Source of the DNA: a bacterium
Lineage (GTDB): Bacteria; UBP18; UBA7526
Length of the DNA stretch: 64,000 bases
Assembly: GCA_030615855.1 (NCBI GenBank)
Contig: JAUWYL010000001.1
Coordinates: 124,001-188,000 of the forward strand
Direction of reading: 5' to 3'
The position numbers were made by a program, and so were the translations under genes. The stretch's first letter is position 1. The number at the start of each line of letters is the position of its first letter. Positions 43,254 to 59,950 of this stretch are shown here, piece after piece. Below the pieces are notes generated by a model. That model made no database searches, was not told the origin of the DNA, and saw nothing but the letters and a program-made list of their open reading frames with translations.

Positions 43254-44111
43254 ATGAGGCGAGATATACTCTATTTTGGTGCCCCTGATAGTTTCACGCA
43301 TATAGCTGCACTGAAAAGATTTGGTCCAAAGTATGACTATAAATCTTACTGGGCTATAGAAAAACTATTTGATGTTATTTTGGCAAATCCTACTAATATA
43401 ATGGTAGTGCCTATTGAAAATAGTACTGGTGGAACAGTTCAACGTACTGCTGACGAATTAGTAAGTGATAAATTCGGAAATAGTGATTTGCGTATTCATG
43501 AACAACTGGAATCAAACATAGTTTTGAATTTAATAGGCCGCGAAAAGAATTTATCAAGTCTTAGAAAGATATACTCACATTCATATGCACTTAGATATTG
43601 TGAAGACTGGTTAAAGGAGACTTTGCCAAACGCAGAAATGATTTTAGTAAATAGTACTTCGGAAGCGGCTATACGTGCAAAAAATAACCGAAAATCTGGT
43701 GCAATTAGTAGCACAAAAGCAGCAAAAACGTATAATTTGAAAATAATAAAAAGGAATATTAGCAAAAACAAAGCAGTTAATGTTACAAAGTTTTATGTTA
43801 TAAAGAAAACAGGTAAGAATATTCTAAAACAAAGCAACAGGACTTCCGTTGCTTTTTCCTTGAAAGATAGAATTGGTGCCCTATGCGATGTCCTTGGGAT
43901 ATTGGCCAATAAAAAAATTAATTTAACTCGAATCATATCTTGTCTCAAATATGACAGTTCAAATAGGAATAAAAAATTAGATAAATATGCATTTCTTATA
44001 GAACTCGAAGGTAATATAGCCCAACAGAAAGTAAAAATAGCTCTTGATGAGTTACAAAGAGCTACCTTGGCTATGCATATTTTAGGTTCCTACCCCACAA
44101 GAAAACTTTAA
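43254..44111 (+). CDS. pheA: prephenate dehydratase-like protein with ACT-like domain
   Basis: Prephenate dehydratase makes phenylpyruvate. Recognisable are FGAPDSFTHIAALKRFG (normally GPxGTFTH), VPIENSTGGTV and STKAAKTYNL; the catalytic TRF motif reads TKF (NVTKFYVI). The C-terminal ACT domain has GALCDVLGILANKKINLTRI but lacks the ESRP phenylalanine-binding motif, so feedback inhibition may be lost. The gene is AT-rich cargo with its own promoters. It may serve a special pathway or be regulatory. Confidence 0.78.
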   Translation: MRRDILYFGAPDSFTHIAALKRFGPKYDYKSYWAIEKLFDVILANPTNIMVVPIENSTGGTVQRTADELVSDKFGNSDLRIHEQLESNIVLNLIGREKNLSSLRKIYSHSYALRYCEDWLKETLPNAEMILVNSTSEAAIRAKNNRKSGAISSTKAAKTYNLKIIKRNISKNKAVNVTKFYVIKKTGKNILKQSNRTSVAFSLKDRIGALCDVLGILANKKINLTRIISCLKYDSSNRNKKLDKYAFLIELEGNIAQQKVKIALDELQRATLAMHILGSYPTRKL

Positions 44112-44251
44112 CTGAAAAACAATAATGTAGATGTGGTTACATCTTGACAGCTTTGGCAAGAATATAAATTTTCTTAAAGATATACCTCTCCAAAAATCAG
44201 AAGCCCCTACTCTTCAGAGGGTTCTTTTTATGCCAAAAATCTTTAATAATC

Positions 44252-44280
44252 CCCGCCAACTCAGGTGGGTTATTTTTTTG
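44252..44280 (+). terminator. terminator after the prephenate dehydratase-like gene
   Basis: CCCGCC pairs with GGTGGG around AACTCA, followed by TTATTTTTTT. Confidence 0.8.
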
Positions 44281-44332
44281 TTGAAATGAAATCTTTTTCA
44301 ATTTACCGACGAAGAAGGCACAGAAAAAAGTC

Positions 44333-44361
44333 TTGACAAATCAAATATCGTAGTTTATACT
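44333..44361 (+). promoter_or_regulatory. promoter of the 44383 gene
   Basis: TTGACA, 17 bases, TATACT, 22 bases before the ATG; AAAGGAGG serves as ribosome-binding site. Confidence 0.85.
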
Positions 44362-44382
44362 ATAATCAAAAGGAGGCAAAAG

Positions 44383-44997
44383 ATGGCTAAGTTGCCGTTT
44401 CCACAATTTCTAAGTCGTTATGGAATCAAACTTCTCTTTACTGCTACTCCGGACGTGGTGCCGGGTACGATCATAGACAAGAGAAAGAAAGGGTTCTTCG
44501 GCATTGGAACCCTTAAACAAGTTCTGGGAGGAGGCCCGGCAAAGTGGGCGACCAAACTTCAACCGGGAAATTTGGTCTATGGCACAATAGAACGGGCTCT
44601 TAGTCTTAAAGGCAAAGCGAGCCTAAACGAGTTCGGTGTGGCAATCAGCGGTGGTCTCAGACGCGCACGGTCTGTTACTTTTGAAATCACGGGCGTCAAA
44701 GTTCGAACATTCAAAACGCAGAGTATGATTACGATATCACCTGCACTCCACAAGCTTCGCAAGTCGAACAAGCAACTTTGGAAAATGGTAAATAATAATT
44801 GGATTGCGGATTATGTTTATTATGCCAGCGAAGCAACGGTGAAGTTCTTCGTTAACGGGGGAGTGAACCTCAAAGCGGATATCCAGAATCGTTTGAAAGT
44901 GTCGGGAGAGGCAGGGGTTCAATGGAAATCCAATCGCAGCTTCACGATAACAAATAACCAAGAAGTACCTTTCGGTTTTAGCGGCTGGAAAGTTTAA
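44383..44997 (+). CDS. uncharacterised beta-rich protein, weakly gasdermin-like
   Basis: A 204-residue protein with no signal peptide. The layout recalls bacterial gasdermins. An N-terminal FLSRYGIKLLFTATPDVVPGTIID resembles their L..xGY.lvplP...v.P...l opening. GGLRRARSVTFEITGVKV resembles the a..l.F.f.dV strand. The end YVYYASEATVKFFVNGG...VPFGFSGWKV resembles l.VvTevL.s..l.v...plaFaf.a. Bacterial gasdermins form membrane pores after cleavage by an associated protease. No protease gene is next to it, so the reading is tentative. Confidence 0.35.
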   Translation: MAKLPFPQFLSRYGIKLLFTATPDVVPGTIIDKRKKGFFGIGTLKQVLGGGPAKWATKLQPGNLVYGTIERALSLKGKASLNEFGVAISGGLRRARSVTFEITGVKVRTFKTQSMITISPALHKLRKSNKQLWKMVNNNWIADYVYYASEATVKFFVNGGVNLKADIQNRLKVSGEAGVQWKSNRSFTITNNQEVPFGFSGWKV

Positions 44998-45023
44998 GGT
45001 TGGTTGCACACCTTATCGTCATT

Positions 45024-45068
45024 CGTTTGTCGGTTACGGTTTTTGACGAACTACGTAACCCCTAAACG
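45024..45068 (+). other. stem-loop after the gasdermin-like gene
   Basis: CGTTT/AAACG outside and GGTTACG/CGTAACC inside, with three-base internal loops on both sides. It lies 27 bases after the stop and ahead of the R3 terminator. Confidence 0.6.
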
Positions 45069-45091
45069 AAACGGGCGTCCTGACCGTATTG

Positions 45092-45160
45092 CGTATAACG
45101 AGCAATGCAGGAGCCTTTAATGGCTCCTCTTTTTTTGTTTTAGAAGCAGGGCGAAGGAGA
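45092..45160 (+). terminator. boundary repeat R3 with terminator
   Basis: AGGAGCC pairs perfectly with GGCTCCT (45109-45128), followed by CTTTTTTTGTTTTAGAAG. The hairpin and tail are the same as in R4 and R6; the front half is diverged (TATTGCGTATAACGAGCAATGC). Confidence 0.8.
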
Positions 45161-45170
45161 GATAAAAGGC

Positions 45171-45199
45171 TTGTTACACTTCCCTGAGTATGCTACAAT
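45171..45199 (+). promoter_or_regulatory. promoter of the SPL-like radical SAM gene
   Basis: TTGTTA, 17 bases, TACAAT with TGC before the -10. Confidence 0.65.
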
Positions 45200-45244
45200 G
45201 TAATTAACATCACGAACGAAAATCCACCTGAGAACGGAGGACTA

Positions 45245-45925
45245 ATGACTCGAGTAATGAACAAGCAAAAAAAGATCGATGCATATAATTTTCCTTATAC
45301 TTTTAATCCTTATACTGGATGCCCCTATTGCTGTCACTACTGCTACACCATTAAATCTGCTCTCTGGAGTGCACGATTGAAAAACTGGGGAATAAAACCT
45401 AATATAGCAAAACCGAAACTTGGTGTAGTTCAGAAACTGCAGCGTGATTTACAGGACCTAAAGAATATACAAACCAGATATAAAGAAGTCCAGATAGGAA
45501 ATTTCTTTGATCCCTATCCTCCAATAGAACCTAAATTAAAAATTACCAGACAATGTTTGGATGTATTTCGACAATATCCAGACTGGAAAGTCCATCTAGA
45601 AACCAAGTCTCCTCTCATCTTGAATGATATGGACATCATTAAGCAGATGCCGCGTTTTGAAGCGGAAATTACAATCACCACGCTCACACACGATAAGCAA
45701 TTTGAGCCGAATGCTCCATCTACAAAAGAACGATTCAACTTAATCAAAGAGCTAAATAATAATGGAATATTTACAAGGGTTATGATTATGCCTATCCTGG
45801 AAGGATATACCGATGTAAGGGCGATAATACAAAAAGCCACTAGATATGGAGCTAAATCATGGAAATCCAAAGAATTACATTACTTTACTATTAAAGATTT
45901 AAAAACTAGATATAATATTAAGTGA
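45245..45925 (+). CDS. SPL-family radical SAM protein, short
   Basis: The cluster motif CPYCCHYC gives Cys26, Cys30 and Cys33 (CX3CX2C), preceded by FNPYTGC as in spore-photoproduct-lyase-like proteins (SplB family). IGNFFDPYPPIEPKLKITRQCLDVF and LETKSPLILNDMDI also fit. At 226 residues it is 60-100 shorter than relatives and stops soon after MPILEGYTDVR, so the C-terminus may be lost. Its role in an element could be DNA repair, but these proteins are chemically undefined. Confidence 0.7.
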   Translation: MTRVMNKQKKIDAYNFPYTFNPYTGCPYCCHYCYTIKSALWSARLKNWGIKPNIAKPKLGVVQKLQRDLQDLKNIQTRYKEVQIGNFFDPYPPIEPKLKITRQCLDVFRQYPDWKVHLETKSPLILNDMDIIKQMPRFEAEITITTLTHDKQFEPNAPSTKERFNLIKELNNNGIFTRVMIMPILEGYTDVRAIIQKATRYGAKSWKSKELHYFTIKDLKTRYNIK

Positions 45926-45975
45926 TAAGAGTGACGAAGAAAAAAAGCTAAAGGAAATTACACCTGAAATAAATA

Positions 45976-46010
45976 AAAAAAGCAGGAGCTATTTTGCCCC
46001 TGCTTTTTTA
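45976..46010. terminator. bidirectional terminator between the convergent SPL and XRE genes
   Basis: AAAAAAGCAGG pairs with CCTGCTTTTTT around AGCTATTTTGCC; T runs on both strands. Confidence 0.85.
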
Positions 46011-46024
46011 TTGCCTGGATAAAT

Positions 46025-46333
46025 CTATTTGAAAATGATAGATACGATTTTAGAAAGCTTCTCTATATCTTTGGTTGATTTGTTCTTAAGAAGTTTGACT
46101 ATTTCATTTCTCGCTTGCTCTTTTTTATTCGTAAAAAGTTCACTGATATCAACCTTTAGACCTTTGGCTATTTTCTCAATATTCTTAAGAGAGGGATTAC
46201 ACTGCCCTCTTTCTATTAATCCAATATGAGTATAGTGTAAATTAGCCCTTTCCCCGAGTTCCTCCTGTGATAACTTTCGCTCCTTCCTTAAATCCCTTAC
46301 CCTATTCCCGAAAATACGATATAGATTACTCAT
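46025..46333 (-). CDS. XRE-family HTH regulator
   Basis: The first 70 residues are a cro/C1-type helix-turn-helix (FGNRVRDLRKERKLSQEELGERANLHYTHIGLIERGQCNPSLKNIEKIAKGLKVDISELF). A 30-residue helical tail follows. It is transcribed away from the 46467 gene, so it may control that promoter or its own. Confidence 0.88.
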   Translation of the reverse strand: MSNLYRIFGNRVRDLRKERKLSQEELGERANLHYTHIGLIERGQCNPSLKNIEKIAKGLKVDISELFTNKKEQARNEIVKLLKNKSTKDIEKLSKIVSIIFK

Positions 46334-46405
46334 TTTTCACCTTCCTTCAACATTATTTTAAAGGTAAAAGGCGAGAATAACCACAGAATAAATTATTTAT
46401 TTTTC

Positions 46406-46434
46406 TTGATTTTAATGAAGATACATAGTATAAT
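46406..46434 (+). promoter_or_regulatory. promoter of the repeat-protein module
   Basis: TTGATT, 17 bases, TATAAT, 32 bases before the ATG at 46467. Confidence 0.75.
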
Positions 46435-46466
46435 AAAAGTAATTGTATTATATGAGGAGGGACACA

Positions 46467-48005
46467 ATGAAAAAGACTATTCTTTTAATAACAGCGTTGA
46501 TTCTAATCTTCTCGTTATGCAGAACTGGCGACTCCTACGCAGTCAGCGATAAAAAATTGGCAAAACTTGCCAAGAAAGCAGGAGGGACAATTACTGAAGC
46601 ACAAGAATCTCTTACCCGATGGAAGACCGCTGACCTTATTGTACCTCCCGAAGCTGAGAAAATCCTGGAAAAAGCTCGTAAGGCCCATAAGGCGGGTAGC
46701 TACAAAGAGGCTCGTAAGCTGGCCGAAGAGTCTCTTAAAACTAGTAGCGATAAAGGAGCATGGAAACTTGCCCAGAAGACGAAAGAAATAATCACTCAGG
46801 CACAGGGCTACATTAACCTCTGGGAAAAGGAAGACCTTACTCCTCCACCCCAAGCCAAGGAAATTTTGAAGAAAGCCAAAGCAGCTTACCAGTCATACAA
46901 TAATGAAGAGGCTTGCCAGCTCGCCAGCCAATCCCTTAAAATAACCACCGATGAAGGACTGAAAAAAGAGGCCCGGAAAGCAAGGGGGGCAATTACTGAA
47001 GCAGAAGCCAGTATCACCAGATGTGAATCTGCAGGATACACTGTTCCTCAAGCCAAAGAGATCCTGAGAAAAGCTCGCCAAGCAAATGAAGCGTGTAATT
47101 ATAAAGAAGCACGTAAGTTAGCTAAAAACTCTCTCGAAGTAAGTAGCAAAAAAAAGATAGCCGGGCCCGCTGAAATTAAACCTAAAAAGGTAGAGAAAAC
47201 AATTAAAAAGGTAGAAAAAAAGATCTCCAAGTGGGAATCTGAAATACAAATTCCTATTCCCCAAGCAAAAAAATTTATAGAAGAAGCTAACACGTTCTAC
47301 CAGTCAGGTAATTATAAAGAGGCGCGCAATCTGGCCGGAAAAGCATATAATTCCTGGCAGCATGCGGTGATGGCAGAAAGGTATATCAAAGGAATGGAAG
47401 CCCACGCTACCAAATGGGAGTCTGCGGGCTACGATGTTCCCCTCACGAAGAAAATTCTTCGTGAGGCTCGCCAAGCACAAAAAGATGGAGAACAAGAAAA
47501 AGCCCACCATTTAGGTGCAACAGCTGTCATTGTACTAAAACGAGAAGTAGCAGGAAGCTTTGAACCAAAAATAGAATTTCAGATTAATCCCCAGCATGGC
47601 TTGACCAAGTACAAAAAAATCGTTGTTTTAAAGATTGGTGATGCACCTCAAACCTTAGGTTCCGGGGAAATAGTGACAAACCTCGTATCCCATACTCTGG
47701 CAAAAAGAAAATATCAGATAGTGCAAAATAAAGAAGAGGCTGATGCCATCATCTCTGGATCCCTAACCCGGTATGAGGCCCAAGAATCTAGTTATCGCCT
47801 GCATTCAAAAGCCTTCATTTACAAATCCCGCGTAGAATCCTACTTCCTCGCCACCGTAGAGTTAACACTTAATATGAAAGATGCTAAAACGAACACTACT
47901 GTTTGGCAAGTTAAGGGTAAACAAGAGATGGCTTCTAAAGAAATAAAACCCGTAGCCCAATCAGTCATTAACGCCATCTTAGACCAGGTTCCGCAGAGTA
48001 AGTAA
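46467..48005 (+). CDS. exported protein with five ~60-residue helical repeats and a CsgG/LptE-like C-terminal domain
   Basis: GAGGAGG and the ATG at 46467 define the start. A signal peptide ends near GDSYA. Five TPR-like repeats follow (consensus: ITEA...I..WE.A....P.AKEILEKAR.A...GNYKEARKLA..SL). The last 150 residues (YKKIVVLKIGDAPQTLGSGEIVTNLVSHTLAKRKYQIVQNKEEADAIISGSL, then LTLNMKDAKTNTTVWQVKGKQE) resemble the CsgG/LptE-type lipoprotein fold that finds or assembles outer-membrane components. A paralogue with one repeat follows. Confidence 0.7.
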   Translation: MKKTILLITALILIFSLCRTGDSYAVSDKKLAKLAKKAGGTITEAQESLTRWKTADLIVPPEAEKILEKARKAHKAGSYKEARKLAEESLKTSSDKGAWKLAQKTKEIITQAQGYINLWEKEDLTPPPQAKEILKKAKAAYQSYNNEEACQLASQSLKITTDEGLKKEARKARGAITEAEASITRCESAGYTVPQAKEILRKARQANEACNYKEARKLAKNSLEVSSKKKIAGPAEIKPKKVEKTIKKVEKKISKWESEIQIPIPQAKKFIEEANTFYQSGNYKEARNLAGKAYNSWQHAVMAERYIKGMEAHATKWESAGYDVPLTKKILREARQAQKDGEQEKAHHLGATAVIVLKREVAGSFEPKIEFQINPQHGLTKYKKIVVLKIGDAPQTLGSGEIVTNLVSHTLAKRKYQIVQNKEEADAIISGSLTRYEAQESSYRLHSKAFIYKSRVESYFLATVELTLNMKDAKTNTTVWQVKGKQEMASKEIKPVAQSVINAILDQVPQSK

Positions 48006-48021
48006 TAAGGAGGTAAGGGCA

Positions 48022-49041
48022 ATGAAAAAGGTTTCTTTTGTAATAGTAACGGGGCTAATGCTACTATTCTTGTTATATGGAACTAGCGAGTCCTGCACAG
48101 CTAACGCCCAGCAAGCATATCTAGAAATTACCGGAGCTCGGATGATGATTGCCAAGAAAGAATCTCAAGGGTATGCTGTTCCTGGAGCAAAGAAGATCCT
48201 GGAAAAAGCCCGACGGGCTTATCAAGACGGTAAATATAAAAAAACCCGAAAACTGGTAGAGAAAGCCCTTGACATACTACGCAAAGAAACAGCGCCTAAA
48301 AAATCTCTGGGCCGAAAGATAGCAGAAAAGACTATCACTGGCGATACTCACATAGGAATACTAACTCGAACACTTACTACCGGTTCTAAACATACTACGA
48401 TAAAAGACAAAATAGACGAGGTGAGAGTGAGGCATGAACCCTTAGTAGAAGTTCGCCAAGAAAAACCAGGGGTCAATCTGGCTGAATACCAAAAGATAGC
48501 TGTCTTAAAATTTAAGGACGCTCCTGGAACCCCGGGTTCGGGAAGCATAGTGGCTGATCTGGTAGCAAAAGAGTTAGCAGAAAGAAAGCATAATGTCGTT
48601 GGCCCAGAAGAGCTAGAGAGGGCAGCCAGGGAAGAGAAGGACAAAGAACCAGAAATAGGCAAAGAGGTCCCAGCCTTTACTATTAGCCGGTCCGATGTCG
48701 TTGTTTCGGGGAATTTACCGGATGAAATGGTTGATTCAATATTGGCCGAGATACAAGAAGACGCTAAGCGAAAAAAAGAACGGGTTGAGGACCTAAGCTA
48801 CTCCCAGATAAAGGAAGTGTTTGGCGCTGATGTTGTTATTACGGGAATTGTTTACAAGTATGCGTCTGCAGATACAGGAGGCGTAGTCAATGTAACGATT
48901 AAAATAATTGACATTAAAGCTGACGACATTATCTGGGAGGGCAATGGAGTATACACTCCTTCGGAGAAAGATGCTTCTTCTATAACCCAGGCGGTTGTCA
49001 AGGCCATTCTGGATGCAGTTTCACAGGAGGAGACTCAATAA
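48022..49041 (+). CDS. exported paralogue with one helical repeat and a CsgG-like domain
   Basis: AAGGAGG precedes the ATG; the signal peptide is VSFVIVTGLMLLFLLYGTSESC, possibly a lipoprotein. One copy of the repeat (IAKKESQGYAVPGAKKILEKARRAYQDGKYKKTRKLVEKAL) leads to YQKIAVLKFKDAPGTPGSGSIVADLVAKELAERKHNVVGPEELERA...VVITGIVYKY...DIIWEGNGVYTPSEKDASSITQAVVKAIL. This is a clear CsgG-like nucleotide-fold domain. It probably acts with its neighbour in the envelope. Confidence 0.72.
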   Translation: MKKVSFVIVTGLMLLFLLYGTSESCTANAQQAYLEITGARMMIAKKESQGYAVPGAKKILEKARRAYQDGKYKKTRKLVEKALDILRKETAPKKSLGRKIAEKTITGDTHIGILTRTLTTGSKHTTIKDKIDEVRVRHEPLVEVRQEKPGVNLAEYQKIAVLKFKDAPGTPGSGSIVADLVAKELAERKHNVVGPEELERAAREEKDKEPEIGKEVPAFTISRSDVVVSGNLPDEMVDSILAEIQEDAKRKKERVEDLSYSQIKEVFGADVVITGIVYKYASADTGGVVNVTIKIIDIKADDIIWEGNGVYTPSEKDASSITQAVVKAILDAVSQEETQ

Positions 49042-49153
49042 TAGAAACTCCCCTATAGTTTATCCCACCATCACGAACAAAGGTTCGGATAAAAAGAATT
49101 CAGGTCGCCTAAAAGAAAACGGCTAAATAAACTTTTGGAAGGAAGGAGGCAGT

Positions 49154-49870
49154 ATGAGAAAGATTCTTTTGTTAGTGGTTTGTTCGCTGGCTATCTTTTT
49201 AGTGGGATGCCAAACTTTCGACCGCTGGTTAGCTCCTTCAAAACCAGTGGTGAAAATAGTAAAAATTACTAGTAATCCTAGTGGGGCTACAATTTATATA
49301 GACAAAAAGTACAACGGAACTATGAAATGTGGAGTTACCCCATTAACATTTTATCTAAAGTTCGTTGGGGAACTTCGTGGGGGAGAATTTACAAAACCTG
49401 GCGTTTGGCTCAAAGACCAAGGAGACCAAAAGAACTTTGGATGGCTCAAAAGAACACATCCTCAGGGGTATGAGTTTGAGGTTACGGTAAAAAAAATAAG
49501 ATACAAAGAGGGGAAAATAAGAATAGACCTCGAACCACGCGACAAGACAGACTACCATATTGACCTAGAAGAAATAGAGACTATTTCTGTAGATGAGGTA
49601 GGTAAACATATAGGAGAGACGAAGATCGTAAGATGCCGGATAGTCTATACCGATAATGTAAGGGGGCGAGTATTTCTATTTACGGGCAAAGATTATAGGA
49701 AAGACTTTGCGGTAGAGATCTACTATCTGAGTAACTTTTCTTTCAACCCCGCTGCTTACTATCTGGGAAAGGAAATCGAGGTTCTGGGGCTTATACAAGG
49801 GGGCTGGCGCGAGGGCTTGCCCCCGTTTATCAGTGTTACCAGTCCCGACGAAATAAGAGTGATAGAGTAG
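49154..49870 (+). CDS. PEGA-domain lipoprotein with a C-terminal OB-like fold
   Basis: Lipobox FLVGC (Cys19). Residues 33-75 are a PEGA domain (VKIVKITSNPSGATIYIDKKYNGTMKCGVTPLTF), a surface-associated beta domain. The C-terminal half (VGKHIGETKIVRCRIVYTDNVRGRVFLFTGKDYRKDFAVEIYYL...GKEIEVLGLIQ...ISVTSPDEIRVIE) looks like the OB folds of the nuclease protein at 35118. It closes the three-gene envelope module. Surface attachment is likely; partners unknown. Confidence 0.68.
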   Translation: MRKILLLVVCSLAIFLVGCQTFDRWLAPSKPVVKIVKITSNPSGATIYIDKKYNGTMKCGVTPLTFYLKFVGELRGGEFTKPGVWLKDQGDQKNFGWLKRTHPQGYEFEVTVKKIRYKEGKIRIDLEPRDKTDYHIDLEEIETISVDEVGKHIGETKIVRCRIVYTDNVRGRVFLFTGKDYRKDFAVEIYYLSNFSFNPAAYYLGKEIEVLGLIQGGWREGLPPFISVTSPDEIRVIE

Positions 49871-49898
49871 AAAAGAAAAAGGGGGATTTTAGGAAAGA

Positions 49899-49975
49899 AT
49901 AGAATATCGGGTAGAAGTTATGTTATAATGTTCACCGCAGGAGTCTTAAAAGGCTCCTCTTTTTTTGTTTTAGAA
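49899..49975 (+). terminator. boundary repeat R4 with terminator
   Basis: ATAGAATATCGGGTAGAAGT, TATGTTATAATG, then AGGAGTC-TTAAAA-GGCTCCT (49939-49958) and CTTTTTTTGTTTTAG. It ends the lipoprotein module and is nearly identical to R6 at 55957. Confidence 0.85.
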
Positions 49976-49993
49976 GAGGGGAAGAGATATCTA
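49965..49993 (+). promoter_or_regulatory. promoter of the large structured RNA
   Basis: TTGTTT (the tail of R4), 17 bases, TATCTA. The predicted start is near 50000, exactly where the first strand of the closing stem begins. Confidence 0.55.
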
Positions 49994-49998
49994 AAAAC

Positions 49999-51260
49999 CG
50001 ATTCAGAATCAATCAAGGAGAAGCCAGGCCGTGCTCAATCTTTAAGTGCAAGTTTAATTCCTGCTCAACAATATCCATTTTGGAACCAATCCGAAAACCC
50101 CTCATGAATTTATTCAGGAAATGTGGGTTGCCTCATTCCCAGAATAAAAATCTAAAGTTCATCAGCGGTTTTCTCTTCCAAAATGAATTGACCAGGAATT
50201 AAACCCCCTTCTCTTCAAGATGACCGAGCTGAGAATTAGAACCAAGATATCTTAGTTCATTCCAGTCCAGAGATGTAGGGATGCCTCATCTCTTCCCTTC
50301 CACTCATAAGATAATACCCTTCTATCTTCCAGCGAGCCTGTTAGGGTCTTGGACCTAATTCTCACATTTTAAAGAGAAGGGTCATCATCTACCCCAGCGA
50401 GATAGATGATGTTTCCACTCAAAGATTACTGGCTTCTCCTCCTGAATCTATTATGGATGACCCCCAAATTCTGCCAGGCAAGAAAGATTGTGTGGGTGGT
50501 GGTGGACAGGCTCACTCCTCCTGGGGTGGTGGCAACCTTTCCCCTCGCATAGCATCGAAGCTGGGCGGGAAAGCCACGCCCTTCCCCTTTAGCGGGGAAT
50601 TGGGCAGATAATGCGCATTATCTGCCCTTGCTCACTATGGATGTTGGGTCGTCTTTTCGGGCTAAAACCTCAACATAAAATTTATTTTATGTTAACCTGC
50701 CACCACGCAAGAGGGATATGTCATTTGGCCCACCATCCCTTTCTGAGGGACGACCAATAAAGATGTTTCACCCTTAAGGTCGCCCTCATACTCCCACCCG
50801 TTATCCCACCAACAGGTTCTCATACCATTAACCACTACAGGAGAGGGCATCAGGCTTCATAAAAGGAGCATCTATCCTTTGGGGAGGGGCTATCAGCAGG
50901 AAGCATATATCTGGGGGAGCACCTATGGAATGGACAGAGAAGCTTCGAAGCAAAGCAGGAAGAAAGTAGCAGGCAGGAACGAACCGGGGGAGTCCGGGTA
51001 GATGTATCCTCCCAGCGGCTCTTTGCTCCCGTAGCAGACTATTCCGCATGTCCGGAACAGGCAAGAAGAATCTCTGAATTTTATGGAAAAAGTCTGTAAG
51101 CCCCCGTCGCTATTGAACTTAGGGGAATTTCGGGTATTCCGTCTGAACGGAACAGCCTTTAAGAAGCAGGGATCTATCACCCCACACTTTAAAAATGCGA
51201 TATAGGACGGATACGGAGCTCCCAGGGGCATTCCAGGGAAGTATCTAATGGCAAAAGGGT
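49999..51260 (+). ncRNA. large structured non-coding RNA candidate, ~1.3 kb
   Basis: No plausible gene occupies this stretch; the only frames are two short ones on the minus strand. Domain 1 is closed by GATTCAG + AGGAGAAGCCAG (50000-50006, 50016-50027) pairing perfectly with CTGGCTTCTCCT + CTGAATC (50429-50440, 50442-50448). Nested inside are 50052-50063/50193-50204 (12 bp), 50076-50085/50176-50185 (10 bp), 50206-50215/50372-50381 (10 bp), 50231-50247/50347-50363 (15 of 17) and hairpins at 50269, 50308 and 50383. Domain 2 is closed by 50499-50510/50696-50706 and holds hairpins at 50563, 50582 and a 26-base palindrome at 50602-50627. More hairpins lie at 50672, 50736, 51042 and 51137. A promoter precedes it and the R5 terminator follows. 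Function unknown. Confidence 0.7.
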
Positions 51261-51261
51261 G

Positions 51262-51345
51262 AAAGGATAAAATATCGGGGGGAAGCTACATTATAATGCT
51301 TACCGCAGGAGTCATAAAGTGAATCCTGTCTTTTTGTTTTAAAAC
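51262..51345 (+). terminator. boundary repeat R5 with weak terminator
   Basis: GGATAAAATATCGGGGGG, AAGCTACATTATAATGC, then CAGGA...TCCTG (51306-51328) and CTTTTTGTTTT. A diverged copy of R4/R6 that can end the RNA transcript. Confidence 0.65.
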
Positions 51346-51370
51346 AGAGTAAAGGAGAGTAAAAAAATGC

Positions 51371-51399
51371 TTGCAATTTCCACCGAAATATGATAAGAT
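51371..51399 (+). promoter_or_regulatory. promoter of the restriction-modification operon
   Basis: TTGCAA, 17 bases, TAAGAT with TGA before the -10; the following TTTTAAGTAGAAATTGAGG resembles 35092-35110. Confidence 0.6.
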
Positions 51400-51431
51400 T
51401 TTAAGTAGAAATTGAGGTAGAGAGAAAAATA

Positions 51432-52574
51432 ATGAAGAATGGCTACGTAAAGAAGGCAAGAACCAAAGCTCAGGTATGGATCAAGGAAAATCTTTCTGAT
51501 TATTTAGATGTAGTGTCCATCGGTCTACCAGAATATGATGACAGATACAATATTTGGAGAGTACCGTTAAATCTCGAAAATGGTAAGGATAGATTAGTCG
51601 GTGAAATCAAATACGATAAATCTATTGAAAAAATGGTAGGTCGTACAAAAACCAAGATTATAACAGAAAGAATTGAAAAGTATCGTAACGAAAAGCCAAA
51701 AAAAGCGAAACAGAAAAGTGGATTATTCTATCCTGCTCCTATCCCAAACAAAGTTATACTAGGAGATGCAATTAAAGTTCTTGAGGATTTTCCACCCGAT
51801 ACAGCACAACTTATGATTACATCCCCACCATATTTTAATGCCAAACCAGAATACTCTGAATATGTTGACTATCAAGAATATCTGGACTTTTTAAGGAAGG
51901 CTATTGCCAGAGTTCATAATGTCTTATCGGATGGGAGATTCTTGGTTATGAATGTCTCCCCCGTATTGATTAGGAGAACATCCCGTAAAACATCAAGTAA
52001 GCGCATACCAATACCGTTTGATGTACATAAAGTAATAGAGAGTGTTGGTTTTGAGTTTATGGATGACATAATATGGGTTAAACCGGAAGGAGCTGGATGG
52101 AATTTGGGTAGAGGTAGAAGATTTAGAGCGGATCGGCAACCTTTGCAGTACAAGCCAGTTCCAGTAACGGAACATGTTTTGGTCTATCGGAAGAAAACTG
52201 ATAAGCTGATTGACTGGAATATCCGAAGGCATTATGACCAAAAACTTGTAAAGAGATCAAAAATACGCGGAAAATATGAAGTTACAAATGTGTGGCACAT
52301 TCATCCGGCATTTAGCAAACACCACCCAGCAGTATTCCCGAGAGAACTTGTTCGCAGGATAATAAGATACTATTCATTCAAGGATGATCTCGTTTTAGAC
52401 CCATTTGCTGGTTCGGGTACAGTGGGTCATGTGGCTTATGAGATGGGCAGACGCTTTCTACTCATCGACAACGACCCCAAGTATTTCAAACTAATGAAGA
52501 GAGCGCTGAATGAGAGAATTAAAAATAAAATAAGAATCGATTACGAAATTCATGAAACATTTAAGGGGGTGTAA
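51432..52574 (+). CDS. DNA methyltransferase of a type II restriction-modification system
   Basis: Motif IV TSPPYF (residues 130-135) precedes motif I DPFAGSGT (323-330), the beta-class order of N4-cytosine and N6-adenine methyltransferases; TSPPY favours N4-cytosine. The N-terminal 100 residues may help recognise the site. It overlaps the downstream endonuclease gene by 23 bases. If the partner is CfrBI-like, the target would be of the CCWWGG kind; that is inference. Confidence 0.88.
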   Translation: MKNGYVKKARTKAQVWIKENLSDYLDVVSIGLPEYDDRYNIWRVPLNLENGKDRLVGEIKYDKSIEKMVGRTKTKIITERIEKYRNEKPKKAKQKSGLFYPAPIPNKVILGDAIKVLEDFPPDTAQLMITSPPYFNAKPEYSEYVDYQEYLDFLRKAIARVHNVLSDGRFLVMNVSPVLIRRTSRKTSSKRIPIPFDVHKVIESVGFEFMDDIIWVKPEGAGWNLGRGRRFRADRQPLQYKPVPVTEHVLVYRKKTDKLIDWNIRRHYDQKLVKRSKIRGKYEVTNVWHIHPAFSKHHPAVFPRELVRRIIRYYSFKDDLVLDPFAGSGTVGHVAYEMGRRFLLIDNDPKYFKLMKRALNERIKNKIRIDYEIHETFKGV

Positions 52575-53526
52575 GATAAATATTCAATTTGATGTAGATA
52601 AATATAGAGGGTGGCTGAGAAAGAACGTAACATTAAGTGATCCATTATCTCCTGAATCACTAAAGACTCTTGTTTATCATCTTCTTTTGGGTAAAAATTA
52701 TCGTCTTCTGACGGAGAGAAACACCAAAGAAAAACTGTTTGCTACCTATATATGGTTGACAGATGTATACAACAAAGCAAAAGAAGAATACGGCAATGAC
52801 TGGCGAGAAAAAATGCTTGGTGAACTTTTAGGTGAAGAAAGACCAAAAAAAGAGCAGAAGGATTTAACGTTTTGGTTGTTGGGACTTACACAAAAAGGAG
52901 CGGTAAATCTTGGCATAGCCAAAAATGACTATCCTACGGTACTAAATGAGGTGATTGGATATTGTAGAAAACTATTCTCAGAGATGGGTGTTGATGGAAG
53001 GGAGGATAATACTTGGCTCCTAATGATGGCTGGATCGGCCACTCTAAATATACGTGGTTCACAAAAAGCAAAGATAGGTAAAACCCTTGAGAAAGTTTTT
53101 TTGAGAGCTATGCTTACTATACTTGGTCTAGAAGAAAATGAAACCTTCTGGATGAATATTGGAAGAGACATAGAAGTTGAGAGAGAAGCTGATGCGGAAG
53201 TAAGAACGAGGAGGGGGAGGATTAGAATCGAAGTTGGGTTGATTGCCCCAGGGAACCAAGAAGTAATAGAGGATAAAATCTCAAGAGTAGGAAGGAATGG
53301 AATTGTTATATTTGATAAACTTGGTCCCCGTTCCAGAGTGTACGAAACAGCAGAACGCAATCATGTAAAATTAATCCAGATAAGAAACAATCAGCCTCTA
53401 ATCGAGATATATCGACATCTAAAACCATTAGTAGATATAGAACTAAGGAAGCCATCACAAACCGAAAAAGAACTCAAAAAATTAATAAACAAATTATCAG
53501 ATGAAACACTACGACCAGCCACTTAA
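52552..53526 (+). CDS. type II restriction endonuclease, possibly CfrBI family
   Basis: A 324-residue protein directly after a methyltransferase. The second half has a PD-(D/E)xK-like stretch (DIEVEREADAEVRTRRGRIRIEVGLIAPGNQEVIEDKISRVGRNGIVIFDKLGPRSRVYETAE) followed by QPLIEIYRHLKPLVD, a pattern I associate with CfrBI-type enzymes. The start inside the methyltransferase gene keeps restriction dependent on its translation. Assignment as endonuclease is strong from context; the family is less sure. Confidence 0.65.
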   Translation: MKHLRGCKINIQFDVDKYRGWLRKNVTLSDPLSPESLKTLVYHLLLGKNYRLLTERNTKEKLFATYIWLTDVYNKAKEEYGNDWREKMLGELLGEERPKKEQKDLTFWLLGLTQKGAVNLGIAKNDYPTVLNEVIGYCRKLFSEMGVDGREDNTWLLMMAGSATLNIRGSQKAKIGKTLEKVFLRAMLTILGLEENETFWMNIGRDIEVEREADAEVRTRRGRIRIEVGLIAPGNQEVIEDKISRVGRNGIVIFDKLGPRSRVYETAERNHVKLIQIRNNQPLIEIYRHLKPLVDIELRKPSQTEKELKKLINKLSDETLRPAT

Positions 53527-53680
53527 CGAAAAATTCTGTACGATTTGTATGCTACCGCTTTTGATTATGCTGGTAGTTGTGGAACACCCTGATATTGGGC
53601 TTTTCAAGACTATCCTCTGGGTGGTCTTTTTGGAGGCGGTTTGTTATGCTGGGCTGAAGTGGGGGTATAGAAAAAACTAA
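53501..53680 (+). CDS. small membrane protein, 59 aa
   Basis: The frame begins 26 bases before the end of the endonuclease gene. Two hydrophobic stretches (CMLPLLIMLVVV and FKTILWVVFLEAVCYAGL) and a basic end (KWGYRKN). The stop overlaps the next ATG (TAATG). No family recognised. Confidence 0.45.
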   Translation: MKHYDQPLNEKFCTICMLPLLIMLVVVEHPDIGLFKTILWVVFLEAVCYAGLKWGYRKN

Positions 53681-53859
53681 TGACCAAAACCTACCTTGAA
53701 AAAATATTAGCCCACTTGCGGATATGCCCAAATTGTCGCAAGGGCGTTATGTGGTATGATGTTATAGGAAACATTGAGAAGACAATGTTCCTTTTAGGTC
53801 TACTTCTTGGCGCAATATTATTTGTGCTGTATTTGATTGGGGCTTTTCAGAATATTTAG
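53680..53859 (+). CDS. small membrane protein with CxxC, 59 aa
   Basis: It opens MTKTYLEKI, has CPNC near residue 16-19, and one membrane segment (FLLGLLLGAILFVLYLIGAF). Its start region (TAATGACCAAAACCTAC) is nearly the same as that of the gene at 55643 (MTKTYFEEI), so the two starts share ancestry although the rest differs. Confidence 0.45.
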   Translation: MTKTYLEKILAHLRICPNCRKGVMWYDVIGNIEKTMFLLGLLLGAILFVLYLIGAFQNI

Positions 53860-53898
53860 GCCGTATAAGACATGTTAGGGTAAAAGAATAAATTAAAA

Positions 53899-55518
53899 AT
53901 GACAAAACACAAGAAGAAACGTTCACAGAAAAAAAGAAAAAATCAATTTACCCCCATCAACAAACACAAAAGAGATGGTTCAAAGCTGGCCTCAAAATTG
54001 TCTAGTCTGAATCTTCAAATGATAGATTGGGAAAGAGATTTAATTCCTGAGCATCTTTGGATAGATTTATTAGCTGAGGAATATAAAGATGTTCTTTGGT
54101 TTAAAATTTATAACGAATTTCTAGATAAGTTAGAAGAATGCTTGACAGAACAACCCAAAACTCCACTGTTTGGCTTTATTTCAGATTTTGCCATTCCTTC
54201 AGATGAAGAAAAAGAAAAATTTATAAATAACAATAAAGATTTAATCTTTAATGCTTTTTTTAAACCTATTGGTAAAATTTTATCTTTATATCCAGAAAGT
54301 CCAGCAAGTTGGTTGGTATTAAAAGAGTGGCTAGATAGCGAAAAGGTTGATTTTGAAGAAGAATTAAATAAACTTTCTCAATCTGTATCTCGCCTGATGA
54401 AAGCAAAAGATCTATATGCAGGGCACATACGCGCCTTGCCTTTAAATAGGCTATTTAAGCACAATAAAATCTTTTTAGCACAGGGAAAAATGGATGAATT
54501 AGCTGAGCTACTTCCAAAATATCCTGAAAAATGTACTAAAGAAGAAAAATATCATGTTCAATCATTTGCCAGAACAACAATAAATCAGAATTTTATGACA
54601 GAAGAAAGATATAAGGATATGGTTTGGTCAAAATATTTTTGGCGACACAATTATGATTTAGTACCATGCGCTCCCCTTAATGAATCTCTTGAAGATGGCG
54701 ACATTGAAATGCATGATGAAAAAGTAAAAGAAATACAAAAAAAGACCTGGGAAAATTCTATCAAGTTAATGAAATATCTTGATAAAATTGCAATGCAATA
54801 TAAATACGATTTATACAATCCTATGATAGATCAGATAAAACTAGGACTATTCTCAAGGATTGTTAGATTATATATTTCATTTGTATCAAATCCATTTTTA
54901 TGGACTAGGGATCTTTCCTGCATAATGCTAAGATGCTTAGGTGAAACGACTATTATATTTCACTATTTAATACTTCATGGAACAAATGAAGATTTTAAAA
55001 ACTTCCATGACTATGCGGTTGGGAAGGAAAAATTATTAATGTTGCACATCCAGGACACCTACCAAGAGTTTCTTTCTTTAGAAGGTAAAGACACAGAAAA
55101 GATTGCCAAAGATATTGGTGGTGATTTTCACGCAGAAATAACAGCTGTAGAATTAAAGGGCTGGATAAAAAAAGATATCCGCACAATGGCTGATAACACA
55201 GGATTACAGAAAATTTATAAAATCATAGTTGATCCGTCTAATGCAGATATTCATGGATCATGGTCCAGTATTCGTAAGTCAAATTTAGTAATTTGCCGTC
55301 AGATTCTACATAGATTCCATAGAATACCGAAATTTTATGAGCCTCCTGTTTATTTAGGAGCTTTGGTAGCAGCAGATTCAATTTATTTAACGGCAAAAGA
55401 AATAGCCGTTCAAAAGTTAGGATTTCCTGAACCTGATGAAACTTTATCAGAAATATCAGAGGTGAAAAAGGCAATTCAAGAAAGATCGAAAGAAATAATT
55501 AAGAAATTTAAACCCTAA
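53899..55518 (+). CDS. DUF5677-like protein, cargo of an integron-type cassette
   Basis: A 539-residue helical soluble protein with a basic start (KHKKKRSQKKRKN). The C-terminal third (ETTIIFHYLILHGTNEDFKNFHDYAVGKEKLLMLHIQD, then YKIIVDPSNADIHGSWSSI) resembles DUF5677, a family of unknown function often seen in mobile DNA. It is strongly AT-rich. The stop codon lies inside an attC-like site, as in integron gene cassettes. Confidence 0.6.
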   Translation: MTKHKKKRSQKKRKNQFTPINKHKRDGSKLASKLSSLNLQMIDWERDLIPEHLWIDLLAEEYKDVLWFKIYNEFLDKLEECLTEQPKTPLFGFISDFAIPSDEEKEKFINNNKDLIFNAFFKPIGKILSLYPESPASWLVLKEWLDSEKVDFEEELNKLSQSVSRLMKAKDLYAGHIRALPLNRLFKHNKIFLAQGKMDELAELLPKYPEKCTKEEKYHVQSFARTTINQNFMTEERYKDMVWSKYFWRHNYDLVPCAPLNESLEDGDIEMHDEKVKEIQKKTWENSIKLMKYLDKIAMQYKYDLYNPMIDQIKLGLFSRIVRLYISFVSNPFLWTRDLSCIMLRCLGETTIIFHYLILHGTNEDFKNFHDYAVGKEKLLMLHIQDTYQEFLSLEGKDTEKIAKDIGGDFHAEITAVELKGWIKKDIRTMADNTGLQKIYKIIVDPSNADIHGSWSSIRKSNLVICRQILHRFHRIPKFYEPPVYLGALVAADSIYLTAKEIAVQKLGFPEPDETLSEISEVKKAIQERSKEIIKKFKP

Positions 55519-55577
55519 CAAGGCATTGCAGCGGACAAAAAACGCAGTTTTTTGCCGCTGAATTTCAATGTTATGTA
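55515..55577. other. attC-like recombination site
   Basis: TAACA (55516-55520) pairs with TGTTA (55569-55573). Inside, TTGCAGCGG pairs with CCGCTGAA, leaving one G unpaired, as in folded attC sites. The loop is a short AT-rich segment with its own AAAAAACG/CAGTTTTTT symmetry. A G/TT crossover point at 55570-55571 has a matching ATG/TTAGGG at 53874-53875, which would bound a 1,696-base cassette. Confidence 0.6.
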
Positions 55578-55642
55578 GAGCCTTCAGAAGAAGCAGAAAA
55601 TCTTGGTTTTCGTCGTGCTTGGAGATGGCACGGGGAGAAATA

Positions 55643-55960
55643 ATGACTAAAACCTACTTTGAAGAAATCTCAACTCAAACTATGGAGCATATCAAGAAGG
55701 CCATATTAGAATACCGACAAGGCAAATATAGCGACCCTATGGTACTGCCTAACGCTATTGCCGCAATTCTGGAGACAGAGATAGAGGATCCGGAATATCA
55801 GAAATTTGCGGTAGAAAATTATAGTCAAATTGTCGGAATTGTCATTAATAAAAATCCAAAGTATTTAGCCATTAAGAGTAATATTGAAAGAGATTTTTAC
55901 TTTCAGGTCGATGACGAAATAGTAGAGGCTTATCAAAAAGGAGTAAGGTTAAAAGGATAG
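55643..55960 (+). CDS. hypothetical protein, 105 aa
   Basis: ATG at 55643 with GGGGAGAAATA before it; the longer upstream frame lies in cassette-end DNA. A helical, acidic protein (MTKTYFEEISTQTMEHIKKAILEYRQGKYSDPMVLPNAIAAILETEIEDPEYQ...), no membrane segment. Same opening as the 53680 gene. A terminator (R6) follows. Family not recognised. Confidence 0.55.
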   Translation: MTKTYFEEISTQTMEHIKKAILEYRQGKYSDPMVLPNAIAAILETEIEDPEYQKFAVENYSQIVGIVINKNPKYLAIKSNIERDFYFQVDDEIVEAYQKGVRLKG

Positions 55961-56031
55961 AATATCGGGTAGAAGTTATGTTATAGCGCTTCTCGCAGGA
56001 GTCTTAAAAGGCTCCTCTTTTTTTGTTTTGG
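55957..56031 (+). terminator. boundary repeat R6 with terminator
   Basis: ATAGAATATCGGGTAGAAGT, TATGTTATAGCG, AGGAGTC-TTAAAA-GGCTCCT (55997-56016), CTTTTTTTGTTTTG: almost the same as R4. Confidence 0.85.
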
Positions 56032-56059
56032 AGCAAAATAAAGAAGGATAAAAGAGGCG

Positions 56060-56206
56060 ATAAAAAATATTTTTCGGGAGCAAACCAAAAAAGGACTTGA
56101 CTTTTTCTATAAAATATGGTATATTATAAGTAGTAGTGGTTGAGGGGTTAACTTTAATTTTCAGGAGGGAATAGACGGGGGGCAACTTCTTTAAAATCTG
56201 ATGGGG
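56060..56206 (+). repeat. diverged duplicate of the MerR promoter and start region
   Basis: It aligns along its length with 56499-56647: AAATATTTTTCGGGAGCAAA, ACTTGACTTTTTC, TATGGTAT, TAACTTTAAT, TCAGGAGGGAA and AACTTCTTTAA. The promoter (TTGACT-N17-TATATT, 56097-56125) is kept. The start codon has become ACG and the frame meets TGA after eight codons, so only a broken gene start remains. Confidence 0.8.
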
Positions 56207-56229
56207 CTGGATGAGATGGGAGATGAGAA

Positions 56230-56445
56230 ATGAAGAATCATGATCCTTGCCTGCGTTCTCTCTTCCAGTGCTTCCTTGAAAAACTGGGGAATATGGAAAA
56301 GGAAGATTTCTTTGCCGTTGTTCGGGAACATTACCCCGGCGAGGAGGCCTTTGAAGAATTCATTAGCTACTTCAAAAGCGAAGAGGGAATTGACAGGTTT
56401 ACAACCATTCTGTCCGAAGAAGCAAGAAAAATAAGAATTGACTGA
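56230..56445 (+). CDS. small hypothetical protein, 71 aa
   Basis: Acidic helical protein (MEKEDFFAVVREHYPGEEAFEEFISYFKSEEGIDRFTTILSEEARKI) behind the duplicated MerR-type promoter. No family recognised. It sits between the two copies of that promoter region, which suggests it was captured when the region duplicated. Confidence 0.5.
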   Translation: MKNHDPCLRSLFQCFLEKLGNMEKEDFFAVVREHYPGEEAFEEFISYFKSEEGIDRFTTILSEEARKIRID

Positions 56446-56534
56446 AAAGAAAGTAGGGATGGGGAGGAAACCGGCCAAGAAGAGGAGAAGGGGGGCAATA
56501 AAAAATATTTTTCGGGAGCAAACCAAAAAAGTAC

Positions 56535-56563
56535 TTGACTTTTTCAGTAAGATATGGTATAAT
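56535..56563 (+). promoter_or_regulatory. promoter of the MerR-like gene
   Basis: TTGACT, 17 bases, TATAAT with TGG before the -10, nearly the same as the promoters at 56097 and 59894. Confidence 0.85.
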
Positions 56564-56613
56564 ATAAAGTAAGGTGGTAGAAAGACTAACTTTAATCTTT
56601 CAGGAGGGAACAG

Positions 56614-57408
56614 ATGGAGAATAACTTCTTTAAGATCGGTGAAGCTGTCCGTATCCTTAAAAAGGAGTATGAAAACTTGACAGCGAGCATGCTGAGATAC
56701 TGGGACCAGAAAGGAGTCGTCGAGGCTTCAGAGAAGACAGAAGGGGGGCAGAGAGTATATAGAGTCGAGGATCTGGACTTAATCAGATATGCCAGGGAAT
56801 TGTCAATATCCGGTTGTTCGCTCGGTATAATCAGAAAGGCAATCAAGGAAACTAAACTCGTTGCGAAAACTCCCAAATACTCTGCCGAATCATTCAGAAA
56901 GGCCCTTATCAAACTAATCCGGGCTCTGCGAGCATTTAATAAACTCGAAAGACGACTAGAGGTACACAATCAGCAATCTCTTGGGGAACGATTTGAACCG
57001 ATATACGACAGAGAGGCACTGGTAAAATTATCAGGGGATCCGGCCTCTGAAAAGATTATAGATAAAGCAGAGAAATATAACTTAATATTTCCTGGAAAAT
57101 CGGGTAAAAAGAAGAGATACAGCCGGGCTGACGAAGTGATCTTAAGATATTTGTTACTGATGGGAATATCTGAAATCAAAAAATTCAAAAACCTTTATGA
57201 TATTATTAAGTACTTAGAAGAAGAGGTGGGCGTTACTGTAACAGTTAAGCCAGGAAAGAACTTTGCATATTTTCTGCTCCCTGGAGTTCGTTCACAATCC
57301 TTTACAGAGCGCATTGCGACACCTCAAGATCGTCTATTTCAGTTGCTGCACGATCATTACGATTATATTTACGGAGCTGTGAAGATGCTGGCGGAGCCCC
57401 ATGTCTAA
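56614..57408 (+). CDS. MerR-type regulator with a second HTH-like half
   Basis: Residues 3-85 are a MerR winged helix (FFKIGEAVRILKKEYENLTASMLRYWDQKGVVEASEKTEGGQRVYRVEDLDLIRYARELSISGCSLGIIRKAI). Residues about 130-200 look like a second, diverged MerR or helix-turn-helix unit (YDREALVKLSGDPASEKIIDKAEKYNLIF...RYSRADEVILRYLLLMGIS). The rest is unassigned. It has a strong promoter and probably regulates the element, perhaps the similar promoter of the integrase. Confidence 0.72.
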   Translation: MENNFFKIGEAVRILKKEYENLTASMLRYWDQKGVVEASEKTEGGQRVYRVEDLDLIRYARELSISGCSLGIIRKAIKETKLVAKTPKYSAESFRKALIKLIRALRAFNKLERRLEVHNQQSLGERFEPIYDREALVKLSGDPASEKIIDKAEKYNLIFPGKSGKKKRYSRADEVILRYLLLMGISEIKKFKNLYDIIKYLEEEVGVTVTVKPGKNFAYFLLPGVRSQSFTERIATPQDRLFQLLHDHYDYIYGAVKMLAEPHV

Positions 57409-57521
57409 AATAAGGCAACAAAAATACCGTGATTATGGGAGTAAATTTTTTCCCAATAACTCAATATCAATACTTCAGCCACTTTCACTATTTTTCTTAA
57501 GAAAAGTGGAAGGCCCGGTGA

Positions 57522-57677
57522 ATGATGTCTGACATCCGGATTACCTCCGTTAAGTGCGTACCGACTCCTGATGCCAAGGAGCGTTTCAAAAAAATCGTCG
57601 TGATGCTGTTTTCGAAAGCAAAATATCAACAGGGCCGGAAGGAGGTGAGGAAAAATGAAGGAAAAAGAACTAACTGA
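57522..57677 (+). CDS. small hypothetical protein, 51 aa
   Basis: MSDIRITSVKCVPTPDAKERFKKIVVMLFSKAKYQQG..., with GGCCCGGTGA ahead of two ATGs. It overlaps the start of the next gene in another frame, which carries the ribosome-binding site GGAGGTGAGG inside this frame. The amino-acid pattern looks protein-like, but support is modest. Confidence 0.4.
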   Translation: MMSDIRITSVKCVPTPDAKERFKKIVVMLFSKAKYQQGRKEVRKNEGKRTN

Positions 57678-57864
57678 TAAGGAGATAAGGAAGATACTTG
57701 AATATAACCGAAGATTACTTAAAGAAATGCGTAAGGAGTTTTTAAGAAATCAAGAGGAGTATAGAGAAATAGCGATTCTGTTTAGTGAAGAAACGGAAAT
57801 GATAGAAGCAAAGAAAAAAACTATAGAATCAATCAAAAAACTTATAAGTATGCTTCCCAAATAG
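57655..57864 (+). CDS. small coiled-coil protein, 69 aa
   Basis: GGAGGTGAGG precedes the ATG. The protein is a single charged helix (LTDKEIRKILEYNRRLLKEMRKEFLRNQEEYREIAILFSEETEMIEAKKKTIESIKKL), suited to a coiled coil. No family recognised. Confidence 0.55.
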   Translation: MKEKELTDKEIRKILEYNRRLLKEMRKEFLRNQEEYREIAILFSEETEMIEAKKKTIESIKKLISMLPK

Positions 57865-58000
57865 ATAAAAAAATAGAGAGGAAACTAGAGAAACCGGGAA
57901 AGAAGGAGGAAAAAAGACACCGTCCGAAAGTTTAAGGACCATTAAAAAACAGGGAATCAAAACTGAAACTCCGATTCCTAACCTGTCAAGGAGGCGAAAT

Positions 58001-58987
58001 ATGGAGAGGTGTAAGATGAAACGTTTACCCAGTGTATCAGTCAAGCTCGCTAGTATAATCTGTATAGCAGGTTTCATCCTTCTGTGGTATGTTTTAATTG
58101 CGGCCCACACTACAGGACTTGTTAAGAGTTGTTTTATCATCTATAGCATAGGTTTGATGGTGGTTACTTCTTATTGGAGCTATAGAATTGCAGAATGGGT
58201 CCGAATAAGGAATACGCAATCTGTAAAAAACATATTTGCTTTTTTCTTCGGCAAATTATTTAGCCCTCGCGCACTTAAAATATTCGAGAAGATAAGGACT
58301 GAGCACCAGGATACCATCGACAAAATCCGGGGTTCTCTATTCCGTGAAGCTTCTCCGGAAGACGAACTTGTTATATCCTTGATAAATCGTCTCTTATCTG
58401 CTCTTTTTGATTTACCCGATTTTAAATACGGACAGAAGAGTCTTTTTTCCTACTCTTTACTGGTAGCCGTTCACTCCTTAGAAGATTTTGAAACGAGAGT
58501 CTGGCGGATGGAGACCCCGGAAGGAACGCGCGACGGCGTTAAAACAATTATGATGAGGGATAAATGGAAGTTAGGAGTTTGTATCTCTGCCCTGGCGAGT
58601 AACCTAGGCAGGGTTTACGAAGCGGAAGTATCTAGCCGTAAAGCATCTGCAGAAGTTTGGAACCCAGGGCGTGAAGAACTTTATACCTTCGCCCTTCGCC
58701 ATAAGGAGTATGGTATTAAGTTGAAACCTACTCAAGAAAATTTCCACAAAATCCCCACCAATTATCTCCTTCATTATATTGTGAATAGCGATGTGGCTGA
58801 AGAATTGGGAGAAGAAGTGTTCTTTGAGGTGCTGGATTCCCTGTCTCCTGCTCCTAATTCCAAGAATCGTATCTTCCCTGTGGTGGAAGAAGGAAACAAG
58901 CTAACTGTTGAAGAAATCTCTAAATCCAAAGAGGCAGTGAGAGGAGGTCGGTATTGTCCACCAGAGAAGAAAACAAAAGAAAACTAA
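58001..58987 (+). CDS. membrane-anchored protein of the element core, 328 aa
   Basis: AAGGAGG is eight bases before the ATG. Two adjacent membrane segments (residues 17-34 and 42-62) are followed by a cytoplasmic part of about 260 residues with LLVAVHSLEDFETRVWRM, LGVCISALASNLGRV and PTNYLLHYIVNSDVAEELGEE. The His and Asp positions could hint at a hydrolase-like helical bundle, but no motif is complete. It overlaps the replication-relaxation-like gene by 34 bases, so the two probably act together in transfer or replication. Confidence 0.5.
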   Translation: MERCKMKRLPSVSVKLASIICIAGFILLWYVLIAAHTTGLVKSCFIIYSIGLMVVTSYWSYRIAEWVRIRNTQSVKNIFAFFFGKLFSPRALKIFEKIRTEHQDTIDKIRGSLFREASPEDELVISLINRLLSALFDLPDFKYGQKSLFSYSLLVAVHSLEDFETRVWRMETPEGTRDGVKTIMMRDKWKLGVCISALASNLGRVYEAEVSSRKASAEVWNPGREELYTFALRHKEYGIKLKPTQENFHKIPTNYLLHYIVNSDVAEELGEEVFFEVLDSLSPAPNSKNRIFPVVEEGNKLTVEEISKSKEAVRGGRYCPPEKKTKEN

Positions 58988-59886: not shown

Positions 59887-59893
59887 AAAGTCC

Positions 59894-59922
59894 TTGTCTT
59901 TTTCGTAGAGAGGGTTTATAAT
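59894..59922 (+). promoter_or_regulatory. promoter of the integrase gene
   Basis: TTGTCT, 17 bases, TATAAT. It shares the CTTG-CTTTTTC start with the MerR promoters. Confidence 0.75.
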
Positions 59923-59950
59923 TAATAAAACTAGAAGTCAGGAGGTCAAA

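Follow-up and report, generated by a model that had tools for sequence, protein, structure and literature searches.

On balance, the best explanation for a gene-free segment of a mobile element is a large structured non-coding RNA, 460-800 nt long and encoded on the minus strand. That a functional RNA is specified by this strand we consider probable. The segment was analyzed within a 64-kb stretch of bacterial DNA (the window, to which all coordinates refer), where it stands as a module of its own, surrounded by the defence-type genes of a mobile island, in a sparsely sampled phylum (6 genomes searched). It represents a candidate new RNA class, known from one sequence and with no relative in the collections searched.

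The module is located between two genes of the plus strand:

49154-49870 (+), gene of a PEGA-domain, lipoprotein-like protein, left flank
49871-51431, gene-free stretch, between the PEGA-domain gene and the methyltransferase gene
51432-52574 (+), N6/N4 DNA methyltransferase gene, right flank

Only short ORFs, without family matches, are present in 49871-51431, and no convincing ORF, coding signal or Pfam match was detected there, which bears out the description of this stretch as gene-free in an earlier note on the same DNA. Comparison of read-through frames with Pfam revealed no protein remnant in the three minus-strand frames of 50450-51270 or in the three plus-strand frames of 50926-51270, so the check for a protein homologue was negative in the frames searched; one plus-strand frame of the stretch had no relative among 60 genomes. 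A zf-HIT match (E 0.12) in these read-through frames was considered to be due to chance.

The stretch contains long arms, 73-100% complementary:

50016-50027/50429-50440, complementary arms
50037-50051/50413-50427, complementary arms
50052-50068/50188-50204, complementary arms
50073-50085/50176-50188, complementary arms
50093-50111/50155-50173, complementary arms
50109-50126/50131-50148, complementary arms
50206-50222/50365-50381, complementary arms
50230-50247/50347-50364, complementary arms
50516-50534/50698-50716, complementary arms

The nested stems reported in the earlier note were found in the places given there, together with additional ones. When long inverted arms were counted per 500-nt bin, the bin at 50001 ranked highest, sharing this place with just one AT-rich region around 33.5 kb. 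Folding energies, checked against shuffled sequences, were far better for both 49999-50450 and 50498-50790. The former folds with -154.2 kcal/mol as plus strand (shuffles -98.1, sd 6; z -9.34) and with -194.1 kcal/mol as minus strand (shuffles -125.2, sd 5.7; z -12.12); the z values of the latter are -7.54 (minus) and -5.34 (plus). The best value among 49 sampled 450-nt stretches of the 64-kb window was -4.2. The nested stems are thus real and far beyond chance. The segment 50801-51260, in contrast, folds like shuffled sequence (z 0.03; 43 of 100 shuffles equally good), and the structure is therefore real for approximately 49996-50790 and not for the 1.3 kb originally proposed.

A minus-strand RNA of the full 1.3 kb, starting from a TATAAT in the right flanking repeat near 51290 and including this less structured 5′ part, is improbable. 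The TATAAT itself is present on the minus strand within CATTATAATG (51289-51298), and the main support for the longer molecule is a predicted helix, 51286-51276/50800-50790 (probability 0.80). Two similar minus-strand hairpins of the form CTGTTCCG-N6-CGGAATA (51040-51060 and 51135-51155), separated by 95 nt within a segment that is otherwise unstructured, also speak for it (chance expectation 0.07). Against it stand the shuffle-like folding of 50801-51260 and the consensus scan, which recognised no -35 sequence for the TATAAT near 51290.

The minus strand, which folds better than the plus strand, is predicted to form two domains, B and A, with the following components:

49996-50452 (-), domain B (predicted): a long closing helix (P1) leading to a junction that bears a 13-bp hairpin and the long arms H2 and H3; z -12.12
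50429-50452 (-), 5′ side of P1, pairs with 49996-50027
49996-50027 (-), 3′ side of P1, pairs with 50429-50452
50452-50442/50006-49996, 50441-50429/50027-50015 and 50428-50414/50050-50036 (-), three segments of P1
50383-50411 (-), hairpin H1, 13 bp with a 3-nt loop, probability 0.98
50206-50381 (-), branched arm H2, helix probabilities 0.50 to 0.98
50051-50205 (-), arm H3, one long imperfect hairpin, helix probabilities 0.92 to 0.99
50498-50790 (-), domain A (predicted): a hairpin and a branched block
50788-50744 (-), hairpin of domain A
50738-50728/50507-50498 and 50714-50697/50535-50517 (-), closing helices of the branched block of domain A
49992-49998 (-), GGUUUUU following P1, candidate transcript end, read from the sequence and absent from the consensus-scan list
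50450-50477 (-), promoter-like CTGGCA-N16-CATAAT from the consensus scan, would start domain B near P1

Most helices of domain B have a pairing probability of at least 0.9; lower values were obtained for the outermost segment of P1 (0.69) and for three helices inside H2 (0.50-0.80). Few bases are left unpaired at the predicted junction. Domain A contains perfect hairpins, e.g. 50627-50617/50612-50602. The tips of two domain B arms (50125-50136 and 50278-50289, minus strand) have AUGAGGCANCCC in common. Their layout recalls the coat-protein operators of RNA phages; this likeness may be due to chance, and no claim is made from it.

The earlier note had assigned the RNA to the plus strand. Our comparison of the two strands makes the minus strand more likely. 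The minus-strand fold of domain B contains 15 G-U pairs versus 3 in the plus-strand fold, and on the minus strand G (0.247) exceeds C (0.166). The difference in folding energy between the strands was compared with a simulation of neutral decay, based on this one sequence and its predicted structures, in which inverted repeats with the same arms decayed at random to the same count of non-Watson-Crick opposites and both strands were refolded. The difference observed for domain B (-39.9 kcal/mol, against a mean of -2 and an sd of 9.5 to 11 in the simulations) was reached in 0 of 300 and 0 of 200 runs, and in 0 of 200 runs when the plus-strand structure was taken as the ancestor. The strands of four other, unrelated palindromes of the window differ by only 0.1 to 2.5 kcal/mol. 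The asymmetry of domain B fits selection on a minus-strand RNA, and the modelling indicates that domain B is most likely such an RNA. For domain A the outcome hinges on the structure assumed (3 of 200 runs with the minus-strand structure versus 174 of 200 with the plus-strand structure), and this domain may be regarded as compatible with the minus-strand reading. In this way the strand of an orphan RNA can be inferred even where only one sequence is known, both strands being set against simulations of neutral decay.

The leading alternative is a feature of the DNA itself that has no function as RNA: a cluster of imperfect inverted repeats, derived from inverted duplications or short palindromic repeats, that is now decaying. 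The arms are indeed long and highly complementary, the lack of a homologue is what unconstrained sequence would lead one to expect, and when arms are chosen regardless of strand the excess of G-U opposites is modest (7 G-U versus 3 A-C). Neutral decay, however, did not generate the strand difference of domain B in any of the three sets of runs, other palindromes of the window lack such a difference, and several arms nest in one compact fold with mostly high pairing probabilities. The strand asymmetry, which rests on one sequence, argues against a functionless cluster, and we consider this explanation unlikely.

The original proposal of a plus-strand structured RNA starting at about 50000 is very improbable. 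Such an RNA would run in the same direction as the neighbouring genes, and the plus-strand fold of 49999-50450 is also far beyond that of shuffled sequences; the strand comparisons of domain B nevertheless favour the minus strand. The promoter suggested for it (TTGTTT-N17-TATCTA) is absent from the output of the consensus scan, and its -35 sequence falls within the T-run of the terminator that follows the upstream gene on the plus strand (49939-49958, then CTTTTTTTG). On the minus strand, the presumed start at 50000 coincides with the end of helix P1, after which GGUUUUU follows.

As a minus-strand gene, the RNA would converge with the lipoprotein-like gene on the left and diverge from the methyltransferase gene on the right. 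It would comprise domain B (~460 nt), probably preceded by domain A (~800 nt in total), and would end at the U-run 49998-49992 after P1. No strong minus-strand promoter was found in the consensus scan, and promoter-like sites such as 50450-50477 are weak, being equally frequent in shuffled sequence. That the region is transcribed, where transcription starts, and that A and B belong to one molecule are all points that we infer.

A direct repeat of ~100 bp flanks the RNA module on either side, and further copies of it were identified in the window:

49889-49988 (+), left direct repeat, carries the plus-strand terminator 49939-49958
51255-51358 (+), right direct repeat
55946-56046, third full copy
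43013, 45094, 36574 and 36676, partial copies

This lineage-specific, intergenic repeat combines two parts, one with a TATAAT (GAATATCGGGTAGAAGYTAY...) and one resembling a terminator (GCAGGAGTCTTAAAAGGCTCCTCTTTTTTTG). These parts are separable, since they lie ~115 bp apart in L052. Copies are situated at the borders of cargo modules and were also seen in L004, L007 and L052-L055. Parts of the repeat recur in four further genomes of this family, which indicates that it is native to the lineage. It could permit the exchange of modules by homologous recombination.

The host of the module is a serine-recombinase element of ~18.5 kb inserted in comM, with the following components and cargo:

42142-43005 and 61518-62171 (+), comM, split
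59951-61555, serine recombinase, right end of the element
44383-44997 (+), match to bacterial gasdermin (PADLOC bGSDM, E 5.7e-10)
51432-53526, methyltransferase and CfrBI-type restriction enzyme
53899-55518 (+), DUF5677 protein matching PADLOC DitA (E 1e-31)

Both junctions of the element share AATAGGGGG, the junction core. The comM gene is uninterrupted (frames of 489-517 aa) in four genomes of the same family, and the insertion is therefore specific to this lineage. DitA is a component of the Aditi system. Given the gasdermin match, the methyltransferase with its CfrBI-type enzyme and the DitA/DUF5677 protein, the RNA is placed in a defence-type island. The plus-strand gene next to the gasdermin-like one encodes a radical SAM protein, and no protease was found adjoining. 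The DitA/DUF5677 gene is followed by an ORF of 130 aa (55568-55960). A weak TraI_2 match (58001-58987, plus strand; E 0.0044, below the family cut-off) suggests that the element may be mobilizable.

A search for relatives was performed at several levels. The whole 64-kb window gave no match in Rfam at gathering scores, and the stretch itself gave, at permissive E-values, only unrelated weak matches below the family cut-offs. DNA searches revealed no relative elsewhere in the same genome, in the 6 genomes of the phylum or in sets of 98 and 386 spread genomes; they yielded only self-matches, matches of the flanking repeats and two weak matches of 34-38 nt, which were taken as chance. Phages and plasmids contained no relative. 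Single-sequence covariance models of the core of domain A (R1) and of arm H3 (R2), which are weak and find close relatives only, recovered nothing beyond the locus itself (290 and 193 genomes searched). Pattern scans of GTDB and IMG/VR (read-through pseudo-proteins and one 20-base pattern), patchy and likewise confined to close relatives, gave none. Relatives of the integrase, sought as a route to sister elements, are no more than ~42% identical to it, and this over only part of its length. Genome searches around two other centres took in just 7 and 5 genomes and carry little weight.

The long paired arms around a junction, together with the placement as a stand-alone module, suggest that the RNA is a scaffold acting in trans or assembles with itself. 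From the anatomy alone, the RNA would act in trans, with nearly fully paired arms radiating from a multi-way junction and forming a scaffold or an assembly, with itself or with protein, and it would be carried as a stand-alone cargo module of the mobile element. This would be its most likely mode of action, although at a low probability. Still less probable is the specific notion of a new class of large RNA (~0.5-0.8 kb, with long arms and a multi-way junction) that would contribute the RNA to an anti-phage or mobile-element function of the defence-type island and have neither a reverse transcriptase nor a Cas-like protein as its partner. To our knowledge, only a handful of bacterial RNA classes reach such a size, and the functions of most of them are poorly understood. 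A further class, if true, would provide a testable case for the role of large structured RNAs in mobile DNA.

The earlier note could not place the RNA with OLE, GOLLD, ROOL or group II introns, and the lack of an Rfam match supports this view. OLE is also a large structured RNA, of ~600 nt (PMC12286853, PMC9723947). It differs from the present RNA in that no Rfam match was obtained here and none of the neighbours examined carries the annotation of an OLE partner protein. Another kind of large structured RNA in mobile DNA is the group II intron, which also occurs in circularly permuted form (PMC8637638). No intron domain was matched here in Rfam, even at permissive E-values. No reverse transcriptase was found among the neighbours (43254-61555, Pfam) or in five read-through frames of 50450-51270; some group II introns lack an intron-encoded reverse transcriptase. 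GOLLD is large (often >800 nt), strongly structured, present in mobile DNA and of unknown function, and it is frequently, not universally, found near tRNA islands (PMC12286853). In contrast, the present stretch has no Rfam match, even at permissive E-values, the 64-kb window contains neither a tRNA nor a tmRNA, and the host, a recombinase element carrying genes of the defence type, is not an evident prophage. ROOL, a further large structured RNA of mobile DNA whose function is unknown, forms an RNA-only nanocage in a 659-nt example (PMC12286853). It is set apart by the same absence of an Rfam match and of a tRNA in the window, and by the fold predicted here, in which long arms with almost complete pairing predominate. 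As a possible scaffold or self-assembling RNA, the minus-strand RNA would be of a kind with GOLLD and ROOL (PMC12286853), although by the Rfam test it belongs to neither family.
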